Below are positions 38,790 to 49,377 of a stretch of DNA of 64,000 bases, in pieces. Within the stretch, counting starts at the first letter, position 1; every line of letters begins with the position of its first letter. This DNA comes from Thalassococcus sp. S3 (GTDB lineage Bacteria; Pseudomonadota; Alphaproteobacteria; Rhodobacterales; Rhodobacteraceae). Where the stretch lies: contig NZ_CP022303.1 of assembly GCF_004216475.1 (NCBI RefSeq), positions 1 through 64,000 of the forward strand. The letters are read 5' to 3'. The translations under genes were made by a program, and so were the position numbers. Under the pieces are notes generated by a model. It did not search any database. It had not been told where the DNA came from and saw only the letters and a program-made list of their open reading frames with translations.

Positions 38790-38819
38790 TTGTAACAATT
38801 TTGAGACTATGCTCATAAT
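38790..38819 (+). promoter_or_regulatory. Sigma-70-like promoter of the peptide gene
   Basis: TTGTAA (38790-38795) and CATAAT (38814-38819) are spaced by 18 bases. This predicts a transcript start near 38826, giving a leader of about 60 bases before the peptide ATG. Confidence 0.6.
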
Positions 38820-38825
38820 TAACAT

Positions 38826-38854
38826 GCAGGTAATGGAATCAGTTCCCTGCTTTT
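38826..38854 (+). promoter_or_regulatory. 5' leader hairpin with T-tract
   Basis: GCAG(38826-38829)/CTGC(38847-38850) and GGAA(38835-38838)/TTCC(38843-38846) can pair around a short bulge, followed by TTTT. It lies at the predicted 5' end of the transcript and may stabilise the mRNA or act in attenuation. Confidence 0.4.
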
Positions 38855-38886
38855 CAAATTAACTTACTCCAGAAAAGGAATAAGCT

Positions 38887-38961
38887 ATGAAGAAAGTGAA
38901 AGTATACGAAGCCCCGAAGATCAAGAAAGTCAGCATCATCGGTGCGGTCTGGCCTGGCTAA
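38887..38961 (+). CDS. 24-residue putative RiPP precursor or scaffold peptide
   Basis: This tiny gene has its own promoter, a Shine-Dalgarno (AAGGA, seven bases before the ATG) and a terminator just after the stop. The peptide begins MKKVKVYEAPKI and ends IIGAVWPG. The N-terminal part is Lys-rich. Y7-x-x-P10-x-I12 matches the YxxPx(L/I) leader motif that PqqD-like RREs bind in lasso-peptide systems. In lasso precursors the core begins about 17 residues after that Tyr, which here is the last residue, so there is almost no room for a normal core. The only Trp (W22) is near the C-terminus. The PqqD-like gene follows 66 bases after the stop. The RiPP role is inference; a pheromone-like peptide is an alternative. 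Confidence 0.65.
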   Translation: MKKVKVYEAPKIKKVSIIGAVWPG

Positions 38962-38969
38962 TGATCGGA

Positions 38970-39006
38970 AATACAAGCGGGACGTTCCGTCTCGCTTGTA
39001 TTTTTT
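38970..39006 (+). terminator. Strong hairpin terminator between the peptide and PqqD-like genes
   Basis: A 15-base-pair stem (38970-38984 with 38988-39002, one G-T pair), a TTC loop and a T-run at 39001-39006 lie nine bases after the peptide stop. It should end most transcripts and let a fraction continue into the enzyme genes, giving excess peptide mRNA. Confidence 0.9.
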
Positions 39007-46813: not shown

Positions 46814-46849
46814 GGCGTCGATCTGCCCTCCGCCAAGGAGGCAAGACAC

Positions 46850-47611
46850 ATGAACACCGAGCCGCAGATGCCCCTTTTGCGGGCCGAAACGAATGACAAG
46901 CGAACCTGGACCAAGGTGTTCGAGCGAGATCACTATAATCTCGCCGATCTTACGGGCCTGCGCATCCTGGATATCGGCGCGCATGTCGGTGCATTTTCGT
47001 GCAAGGCGGCGCATCGCGGCGCGGAAAGTGTCGTTGCCGTTGAGCCAAGCCCCGAGAGCTTTGCGATCTTGTCTACGAACACCCGCGCGTTGAATTCGGT
47101 TTCCTGCCGGCTTGCCGCACTGGATGCCGAGGACAATCGCTTTGTCGGGGTAACAGGAACCATGGAGGGGGATGCCGCACGTGTCGCAACGGATGTATCC
47201 CACTACAACACGCACGACTTTATCGTACCAAGCGTCTCGCTTCCCACCCTTGCGCAAGCGTTCGACGGTAGACCGGTCGATCTTTTGAAACTCGACTGCC
47301 AGGGCGCTGAATGGGCGGCATTTCGAACCACGCCAGCCGCTTTCTGGGACCGCGTTCACGAGGTGATCGGCGAGATACATACCGACCTGCACTTCTCCGA
47401 CTTCCTCGCCTTTGCAAATGCTGTTCTGAAGCCCGATCAGAGCATGTCCACCCGCACCGACTGGACCAGCCGTGCCATAGCGCTTGATGCGATCACCCGC
47501 TTTTTCGAAACGCGTGGCTTCCTGCTCGATATCCGCCTCGATCCCGAAGATCCTTATTCCGCTGACTTCCATGCGCGCCGACCTGGACGCGCTTGTGTGA
47601 GCGCGTTGTGA
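46850..47611 (+). CDS. FkbM family methyltransferase
   Basis: A 253-residue SAM-dependent methyltransferase of the FkbM group, which usually O-methylates sugars, lipids or secondary metabolites. Motif I is LRILDIGAHVGAFSCKAAHRG (about 37-57), followed by VVAVEPSPESFAIL and the family signature VDLLKLDCQGAEWAAF (about 143-158). A strong Shine-Dalgarno (AAGGAGG) precedes the ATG, and the gene is 36 bases after pepM in the same direction. The acceptor is unknown. Confidence 0.85.
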   Translation: MNTEPQMPLLRAETNDKRTWTKVFERDHYNLADLTGLRILDIGAHVGAFSCKAAHRGAESVVAVEPSPESFAILSTNTRALNSVSCRLAALDAEDNRFVGVTGTMEGDAARVATDVSHYNTHDFIVPSVSLPTLAQAFDGRPVDLLKLDCQGAEWAAFRTTPAAFWDRVHEVIGEIHTDLHFSDFLAFANAVLKPDQSMSTRTDWTSRAIALDAITRFFETRGFLLDIRLDPEDPYSADFHARRPGRACVSAL

Positions 47612-47646
47612 TGAAAGCTGCCAGGATCTGCCGCCGGCGTGATCGC

Positions 47647-48309
47647 CTAATCGGCGGACGAGGGTGTCGCGGCGCGCCCGCGCAACGTGTCATCGACCAC
47701 CGCGCGAATATCGCGTTCGACCGCATCGGCAGAGCGGCTCGCATCAATCCTATGCCAGCCTTCGTCCGCTGCCATGGCTTGCAGCCGTGCCCGAATGCCG
47801 GATTGGTGACGCCTGAACGCAGCGACAGAGCGGGAGGGGTCGAGGCCACATTCATAAAGCGAATAATCTCCGTCCTTACGCACCGCCGAAACGTCAACCG
47901 GCGCGTCGAGGAAGATGACAAGGTCGCTCTGCGGAAAGATGGACACCAAGCCCATCACCCATTCGGTCGGGCTGCCCAGGACCATCTCGGACACCGCATG
48001 CTTTTGCCAGTATCCATCGATCAGATGGATCGTCCGCGGATCCGGAGCATCAGAGACGCTTTTCAACCCAATTCCCATCATCCAGAAAAGGAAGAACGCC
48101 CGCGCGTCGTCTGGCATTTCAGCGATACACCGCGCAATATCCAACCGATCGGATTGAATGAACCTGCATTCGGTATTTTGATCCGCGTCAAGGACATCCC
48201 ACTTGTCAATCAGACTTACCGCAGCCCCGGATTGGCGAAGGTAGGCATGAAGCCGACGGACTTGCGTGGATTTACCGGTTCCGTCCGCGCCGACAATAGT
48301 GATGATCAT
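47647..48309 (-). CDS. Second P-loop thymidylate-kinase-like protein
   Basis: A 220-residue protein beginning MIITIVGADGTGKSTQVRRLHAYLRQSG with a thymidylate-kinase Walker A at about 7-14. DLVIFLDAPVDVSAVRKDGDYSLYE follows where the DRX/LID region of Tmk would be. Length is close to Tmk, yet the usual DRY/H motif is not clear (LIDGYWQKHAVSE instead). ATG 48309 is preceded by GGAG at seven bases. It is the only minus-strand gene of the locus, convergent with fkbM and divergent from the TauD-like gene. Confidence 0.72.
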   Translation of the reverse strand: MIITIVGADGTGKSTQVRRLHAYLRQSGAAVSLIDKWDVLDADQNTECRFIQSDRLDIARCIAEMPDDARAFFLFWMMGIGLKSVSDAPDPRTIHLIDGYWQKHAVSEMVLGSPTEWVMGLVSIFPQSDLVIFLDAPVDVSAVRKDGDYSLYECGLDPSRSVAAFRRHQSGIRARLQAMAADEGWHRIDASRSADAVERDIRAVVDDTLRGRAATPSSAD

Positions 48310-48453
48310 TTCGTATCTCCACGAATACCCCAAATAGTTTCGGAGATATCTTCGAATATGCAAAGGCAATCGAAATAGATGTGGCAGAATATGGCCCATG
48401 CAATGAAACGCACGGGGATCATCGAAACCTGAACAAAAAGGAGGCGAAAGACT

Positions 48454-49377
48454 ATGCCGACCGAATGTCTTACATCTGCAAGCGAAATTCTTTCGCACCT
48501 CGACGATGCCGACCCTCGCCGGTTCTGGACAGCGGCGCAGTTCAGCGCGCCAGAGGATGTCGTGAGATTATCGATCAATGGCATTGAAGCCCTTCAGCGG
48601 GAAGGCCCCGAGATCAAAGAGGCGGTGCACCACGCGCTCTCGAAGGGGCATGGCTTTGGGGTGATCTCCCTCAAGACAGCATCAGAATATACCGATGAGA
48701 AGCTCGCCGCGTTTTCACACCGTCTGGCCGCGATGGTCGGAGATTTGATGACCCAAACCGAAGACGGCCAAACCTTTTTCGAGGTGACGAAAAGCGAGTC
48801 CAAGCACGATGGAGAGCGGCGTCTTTCGATGTCGGCAGGCGACACATCATTGCACACCGATTGCTCATACGGGGATAACCGGCCCGGAGCGATCTCCCTC
48901 TTTTGTCTCCACCCCGCAAAAAGAGGTGGTTCGTCGATACTTGTCAGCGCCTATACTGCTCTGCGGCAATATGTCGAGACCTACCCCGAGGATCTTGCAC
49001 CTCTCGCTGCGCACTACCCGTATTATCGCAGCCACGTGCAATATGCGGGGCAGCCGACCTTTGGGATCTATCCGTTCGTTGAGATCGAAGATGCTGCGCT
49101 GAGTGTCAGGTACAAGATGCCTTATATGATCAGGGGCTACCGGGAAGCCGGTCTTGACATCCCTGACCCGCTTGAGCGCTTCCTTCATCGTTTCGAGGCG
49201 ATCGTTTCGTCGCCCGATAACAGGGTCGACATGAGGTTGGCCCGCGGTGACTTTCTGGTCGCAAGCAACTCCTGGATCCTTCACAACCGCACGCCATATC
49301 AGGATGCGCCAGACGGACCCAAAAGACTTCTTATCCGACACTGGATTGATGGACCGGCATGTCCGCTTCAGGCCTGA
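48454..49377 (+). CDS. TauD/TfdA-family Fe(II)/2-oxoglutarate oxygenase
   Basis: A 307-residue oxygenase of the TauD/clavaminate-synthase-like group. Iron ligands H134 and D136 lie in SLHTDCSYGDNRPGAISLFCL, the distal His in ASNSWILHNRTPY (H277), and R295 in KRLLIRHWIDG is placed for 2-oxoglutarate. Relatives hydroxylate, desaturate or cleave small acids and amino acids, including phosphonates (PhnY, DhpA types). A strong Shine-Dalgarno (AAGGAGG) precedes the ATG. It is the second 2OG enzyme of the locus and probably its last gene. Confidence 0.87.
   Translation: MPTECLTSASEILSHLDDADPRRFWTAAQFSAPEDVVRLSINGIEALQREGPEIKEAVHHALSKGHGFGVISLKTASEYTDEKLAAFSHRLAAMVGDLMTQTEDGQTFFEVTKSESKHDGERRLSMSAGDTSLHTDCSYGDNRPGAISLFCLHPAKRGGSSILVSAYTALRQYVETYPEDLAPLAAHYPYYRSHVQYAGQPTFGIYPFVEIEDAALSVRYKMPYMIRGYREAGLDIPDPLERFLHRFEAIVSSPDNRVDMRLARGDFLVASNSWILHNRTPYQDAPDGPKRLLIRHWIDGPACPLQA

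Follow-up and report, generated by a model that had tools for sequence, protein, structure and literature searches.

What might be made by a bacterial locus in which genes for carbon–phosphorus (C–P) bond formation stand beside a short peptide gene, a peptide-recognition protein and a spare tryptophanyl-tRNA synthetase (TrpRS)? We considered this question for a candidate biosynthetic cluster at 38.8–49.4 kb of a 64,000-nucleotide stretch of Thalassococcus sp. S3 (assembly GCF_004216475.1, contig NZ_CP022303.1, positions 1 to 64,000), hereafter called the window. A preliminary description of this DNA had listed genes for a peptide, a PqqD-like protein, a phosphonopyruvate decarboxylase (Ppd), a nucleotidyltransferase, two Fe(II)/2-oxoglutarate (2OG) oxygenases, a CPBP protease, a major facilitator superfamily (MFS) transporter, two P-loop kinases, a TrpRS, a phosphoenolpyruvate mutase (PepM) and an FkbM methyltransferase, and we found all of them at their positions. 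What the sequence shows directly is the genes with their motifs, the overlaps within the operon and the presence of a spare TrpRS. We propose that the product may be an exported, peptide-borne phosphonate that would poison the TrpRS of competitors, the spare TrpRS protecting the producer. As a whole this mechanism is plausible and tentative; its narrower element, that the peptide and the phosphonate end in one shared product, is somewhat favoured.

It is very probable that the cluster makes a phosphonate. The standalone PepM (45905..46813, + strand) scores 370.3 against a curated cut-off of 319.55 for TIGR02320, and Ppd (39388..40587, +, with several possible starts from 39352) scores 347.1 against 312.5 for TIGR03297, which bears out the earlier claim of genes for C–P bond formation. 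At residue 119 PepM reads EDKLFPKTNS, an instance of the motif EDKX5NS that distinguishes phosphoenolpyruvate mutases within the isocitrate lyase family (PMC12723261; here and below, a citation refers to the excerpt of the paper that was available). PepM is above the cut-off in 44 of 385 genomes of the class, the source genome included; the frame is at least 550 aa long in 38 of the 44, against 329 aa here.

The second component is a 24-codon gene (38887..38961, +) that encodes MKKVKVYEAPKIKKVSIIGAVWPG and is preceded by AAAAGGA. In its predicted translation, YEAPKI matches the lasso precursor motif [Y/W]xxPx[L/V/I/A/F/Y], which is bound by discrete recognition elements (RREs) of ribosomally synthesized and post-translationally modified peptides (RiPPs) of the lasso class and is reported also in precursors of pyrroloquinoline quinone (PQQ) (PMC13381572); the RRE motif YxxPxL is also given in PMC10368454. 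Downstream on the same strand, 66 bases away, lies the gene for an 84-aa PqqD-like discrete RRE protein (39028..39282, +), whose PF05402 match (5e-13) passes the Pfam cut-off. Against solved structures it matches the lasso RRE TbiB1 (E 1.3e-4) and a PqqD family protein (4.9e-5); designed repeat proteins in the top rows were taken as spurious, as only about 25 residues match. By these matches the protein fits an RRE and is predicted to bind the peptide. We therefore consider it probable that the peptide is an RRE-bound precursor, and in this respect the preliminary description, which had proposed a RiPP-type precursor with its RRE, is supported. The genome has a PQQ operon elsewhere (C1:1015860; its genes are presumed from their sequence) with a pqqD of its own, so the cluster pqqD is not the housekeeping copy. 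Among 394 genomes of the family, PqqD matches occur in 24 others, none above 33% identity. The sole plasmid match to this pqqD, at 32% identity, belongs to a lasso-type cluster of Azospirillum that also has an Fe/2OG oxygenase; the lasso-type cluster of the Azospirillum oryzae plasmid (L019, 11953–16406) comprises PqqD, an unnamed 301-aa protein, B2, an AsnB-like protein and a 2OG oxygenase, and one of its small open reading frames (ORFs) carries WHKPAL, a W-type RRE motif.

Directly 3′ of the peptide stop codon, RNA folding places a terminator- or attenuator-like hairpin (38967..39005, +). The fold of 38955–39012 has −26 kcal/mol (z −6.29; equalled by none of 200 shuffles) and a run of six T closes the 3′ arm; a terminator pattern scan did not report a hairpin at 38967..39005. 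Such a hairpin after the peptide is as expected of a RiPP precursor, and would set more precursor than enzyme. Among 333 ATG ORFs of 20–60 codons on both strands of the window, 26 have a Shine-Dalgarno-like tetramer, and only the peptide gene joins such a tetramer to a fold below −18 kcal/mol and a run of five T within 55 nt. The pattern YxxPx[ILV] likewise occurs in one of 416 ATG ORFs of 15–60 codons in the window, the peptide gene, both filters having been chosen after the peptide had been seen. Judged from its sequence, this ORF of 24 codons does not look like a chance frame. Upstream of it, a consensus scan alone gave a weak promoter-like site (TTGTAA-18-CATAAT, 38790..38819, +; 9/12). 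A 66-codon ORF (38223–38423), whose product is hydrophobic and has no family match, precedes an AT-rich stretch (38424–38886, GC 0.33) that leads into the peptide gene.

The third component is the TrpRS (44821..45873, +; TIGR00233, 293.5 against a cut-off of 176.75), which is near full length and keeps PHIGN (HIGH-type) and KMSKS. Because the genome (estimated completeness 100%, 4 contigs) has a second, separate TrpRS gene (C1:4184556; 43% identical to the cluster copy over 317 residues), we deduced that the cluster copy is accessory and not the housekeeping enzyme. Of 8000 candidates drawn from 5.8 billion proteins and scored, P0005–P0014 are 51–57% identical to the cluster TrpRS; most have no organism label, and for three the label is Sphingomonadales or Sphingorhabdus. 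A tree of 48 rows groups them with the cluster TrpRS in one clade (support 100/97), apart from the genome's other copy; the tree took 18 of 108 lower-ranked matches, and neither P0004 (51%, internally repeated) nor P0098 (63% over 65%) entered the clade alignment or the tree. The clade was not found in 384 other genomes of the class or in 397 genomes of one further family; plasmid matches to the cluster copy were all below 60%, and viral contigs reached at most 47%. Extra aminoacyl-tRNA synthetase (aaRS) copies in antibiotic clusters are described as a self-resistance protein (AcmD) or as providing both resistance and aminoacyl transfer (SbzA) (PMC12945691), and a second full-length synthetase beside a housekeeping one, as would be expected for self-resistance, is what we find here. 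Since the peptide holds tryptophan and the synthetase is for tryptophan, TrpRS is the likely target of the product. A role of the cluster TrpRS in self-resistance is moderately favoured, ahead of the biosynthetic role weighed below. The preliminary description had raised the idea of a Trojan-horse inhibitor and had listed this TrpRS without interpreting it; the accessory TrpRS adds weight to that idea, in which the union of peptide and phosphonate is still only inferred.

How are these components tied together? The genes had been described as mostly one overlapping operon, and this holds from ppd to trpS, where five ATGA stop/start overlaps (at 40584, 41387, 42720, 43889 and 44821) couple ppd, the nucleotidyltransferase and the first oxygenase and, separately, CPBP, MFS, kinase and TrpRS; the sole break is the 14 bases that separate the first oxygenase gene from that of CPBP. 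The pepM and fkbM genes start 31 and 36 bases, respectively, after the preceding gene. The description does not extend to kinase 2, which is encoded on the minus strand, or to the TauD-type oxygenase, divergent from it; both are thus outside the operon. Within the run, the nucleotidyltransferase-like protein (40584..41390, +; GSLLEGFGNETSDID) is of the polymerase-beta type, with a GS...DxD stretch and a weak PF01909 match below the cut-off (E 0.017); its AlphaFold model was not used, as the mean predicted local distance difference test score was 38.7. The first oxygenase (41387..41914, +; PF13640, 9.6e-10), which we take to be prolyl-hydroxylase-like from its family, is followed by a CPBP (Rce1-like) membrane protease-like protein, a candidate leader peptidase (41929..42723, +; PF02517, 3e-7), and by an MFS transporter, a predicted exporter (42720..43892, +; PF07690, 4.4e-14). 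Kinase-like protein 1 (43889..44824, +), with the P-loop GMDGAGKS, has no family above cut-off and weakly resembles a thymidylate kinase of solved structure (E 0.005). It and the nucleotidyltransferase are orphans that matched only themselves among the 5.8 billion proteins, in a search that needs shared 5-residue words and so misses distant kin. The FkbM-type methyltransferase (46850..47611, +) is above the TIGR01444 cut-off. Kinase 2, which is thymidylate-kinase-like (47647..48309, −; PF02223, 3.5e-7), likewise has a P-loop. For the TauD/TfdA-type Fe/2OG oxygenase (48454..49377, +; PF02668, 5.9e-30) the best named family is TmpA, 2-trimethylaminoethylphosphonate dioxygenase (NF049936), at 62.6 bits, far below the cut-off of 400. 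An alcohol dehydrogenase of the medium-chain type (49692..50645, −; PF08240/PF00107), possibly a phosphonoacetaldehyde reductase, is an uncertain member of the cluster. PADLOC assignments were set aside as weak or generic: a CRISPR-associated-labelled 2OG match for the first oxygenase, and mad8 and GajA ATPase parts for kinase 2. Family scans of the cluster proteins gave no class-defining RiPP core-modifying enzyme, in agreement with the earlier remark that no standard RiPP enzyme is present.

We speculate that these proteins could act as follows. PepM and Ppd would yield phosphonoacetaldehyde, which the dehydrogenase and the TauD-type oxygenase may reduce or hydroxylate. The PqqD-like protein would hold the peptide by YEAPKI and offer its Trp-Pro-Gly end to the tailoring enzymes, among which the first oxygenase, the kinases, the nucleotidyltransferase and the FkbM methyltransferase might attach and cap the phosphonate. 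The leader would be trimmed by the CPBP protein and the product exported by the MFS protein; in the target cell, peptidases could release a Trp-phosphonate, perhaps bearing a nucleotide, that mimics tryptophanyl adenylate (Trp-AMP), and the cluster TrpRS would remain active and shield the producer. The most specific form of this proposal, in which the RRE-held ribosomal peptide is a scaffold on which a C–P unit is linked to tryptophan and then nucleotidylated to form a non-hydrolysable, peptide-delivered Trp-AMP mimic with a dedicated resistant TrpRS, is possible but doubtful.

The setting of the cluster bears on its origin. Its region begins after a tRNA-Thr(cgt) gene (37664..37739, +), which stands after the same flanking gene in six of nine fetched relatives. 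Comparison by tblastx of 13 kb from that flanking gene in the nine relatives yielded nothing beyond short, scattered and unconvincing matches with the cluster region, from which it appears likely that the cluster is an insertion in this region. The cluster proteins scanned include no integrase, and no other copy of the 3′ 23-mer of the tRNA gene with up to three mismatches occurs in the window. Within the dehydrogenase gene, 13 nt (50371–50383) are identical to part of the tRNA-Thr 3′ region, possibly by chance and possibly as an old attachment site. Directly to the right of that gene, ABC ATPase, transmembrane and BioY-like genes (50906–52746) presumably encode a biotin energy-coupling factor transporter; a synteny search by the ABC ATPase returned many ABC ATPases, all at most 40% identical.

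Could the phosphonate be an ordinary envelope constituent, aminoethylphosphonate (AEP) on a lipid or glycan? Such a pepM neighbourhood exists at another locus (L018), with an AEP transaminase and a CDP-alcohol phosphatidyltransferase. AEP decoration needs the transaminase PhnW, and none is over the cut-off in the whole Thalassococcus genome (best 85.9 against 400.8 bits), which argues against this explanation; the PhnW cut-off was reached in none of 14 named control genomes, so this absence is without a positive control, and the genome has six weaker, below-cut-off aminotransferase-like matches. The PepM frame is short, scans of the cluster proteins gave neither a lipid nor a sugar transferase, and the transporter and spare TrpRS would stay unexplained; we regard an envelope phosphonate as very improbable. 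A role of the cluster TrpRS in biosynthesis, supplying Trp-tRNA or Trp-AMP or itself adding tryptophan to the phosphonate, for which AcmF and SbzA offer parallels with other amino acids, would suit the place of trpS within the overlapping operon beside pepM; there are aaRS-like enzymes that draw on aminoacyl-tRNA to assemble a product, and SbzA is described as combining self-resistance with transferase activity (PMC12945691). The cluster TrpRS, however, keeps synthetase motifs and near full length as in working TrpRS, and scans of the cluster proteins gave no GNAT, peptide aminoacyl-tRNA ligase (PEARL) or other aminoacyl-tRNA-dependent ligase, and we hold such a role to be rather unlikely.

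The PhnW control and the aminotransferase-like matches are among several results that weigh against our proposal. The peptide ends in WPG, its tryptophan being third from the end and not C-terminal, so that trimming, or linkage through Pro/Gly, would be required for a Trp-AMP mimic; the CPBP protein has QELLHR in place of the motif EExxxR and so lacks its first Glu; and family scans of the cluster proteins recognised neither an enzyme joining phosphonate and peptide nor a tRNA-dependent ligase. The sequence GHDQ was rejected as a resistance mark of TrpRS, since 48 of 118 fetched PVGxDQ sequences, the query included, have His there. GC content is 0.48 in the peptide gene and 0.46 in pqqD, against 0.565–0.607 in the remaining cluster genes, which fits separate origins and makes two unrelated neighbouring modules possible: a small-molecule phosphonate cluster from ppd to fkbM, in which TrpRS would confer resistance, and a peptide/PqqD unit that is either a remnant or independent. 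At least 69 gene-free bases lie between pqqD and ppd, and the start of the region after a tRNA gene, where relatives have no convincing match to the cluster genes, also accords with this. The co-occurrence of pqqD with pepM in relatives, by which the preliminary description was to be judged, was not borne out: of 43 other pepM genomes, 27 have pqqD; in six the two genes share a contig, 26 to 235 kb apart, and none has them within 26 kb of each other, a closeness that could be missed because many of these assemblies are fragmented. No close relative of the cluster and no second such cluster were found in these searches, so nothing shows conservation. On the other side, the peptide/pqqD pair lies directly upstream on the same strand, only the enzymes of the operon adjoin the peptide as possible maturation enzymes, and there are lasso pathways in which an RRE reportedly aids phosphorylation or hydroxylation (PMC13381572), kinase and oxygenase genes being present here. 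We consider two unrelated modules unlikely.

The proposal of a joined pathway can be set against known systems. The gene combination was found in no other genome searched. Fifteen pepM loci (L002–L010, with short flanks, L013, L014 and 4 of 386 plasmid records) share with the cluster only pepM (15/15) and ppd (8/15) at E 1e-3; a word scan of genome contigs for pepM gave only two loci, the words being poorly conserved. On an Azospirillum thermophilum plasmid (L016, 41020–61922), pepM/ppd stand with several aminotransferase genes and one ATP-binding-protein gene, followed by tape-measure genes of a contractile injection system. With phosphonate antibiotic clusters our cluster shares the committing pair PepM (EDKX5NS) and Ppd, nearby oxygenases, a methyltransferase and a transporter, to which it adds a ribosomal peptide gene with an RRE motif and a PqqD-like protein. 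Phosphonopeptides other than dehydrophos use ligases and are not known to use a RiPP precursor. The dehydrophos pathway uses an aminoacyl-tRNA transferase (PMC12945691). Lasso clusters with a discrete RRE (B1) share the PqqD-like RRE and the [Y/W]xxPx[L/I] leader, but no B2 protease or asparagine-synthetase-like cyclase occurs among the cluster proteins scanned, and the peptide has only 24 residues; nor is there among them a LanB-like ligase, as in PEARL pathways. Microcin C, whose released payload attacks an aminoacyl-tRNA synthetase (PMC9239234), has in common a short ribosomal peptide, a nucleotidyltransferase and an MFS exporter, whereas here the proteins scanned include no ThiF-type MccB, the peptide ends in WPG and not in Asn, C–P chemistry genes are present, and the target, TrpRS, and protection by a spare synthetase are predicted. 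Clusters for aaRS inhibitors (ascamycin AcmD, SB-203208 SbzA; PMC12945691) share a second full-length synthetase in the operon with another copy elsewhere; the phosphonate and RiPP genes set our cluster apart, and its resistance function is predicted. The indolmycin cluster is another with an extra aaRS copy. In searches of open-licence papers, no RiPP–phosphonate hybrid of this type was found, and a term search did not find "RiPP" in a phosphonate mining paper or a phosphonate review.

To our knowledge, RiPP and phosphonate pathways have been described as separate routes, and TrpRS has few known natural inhibitors. If the proposal is true, this would be, as far as our searches reach, the first hybrid of RiPP and phosphonate pathways, and no earlier Trojan-horse inhibitor would have been directed against TrpRS. 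The orphan nucleotidyltransferase and kinase suggest a chemistry for which no relatives have been described, and from the spare TrpRS the target can be guessed directly and the guess put to the test. A joined pathway would put C–P bonds under the control of the genetic code, so that variants of the peptide could be obtained by codon change.

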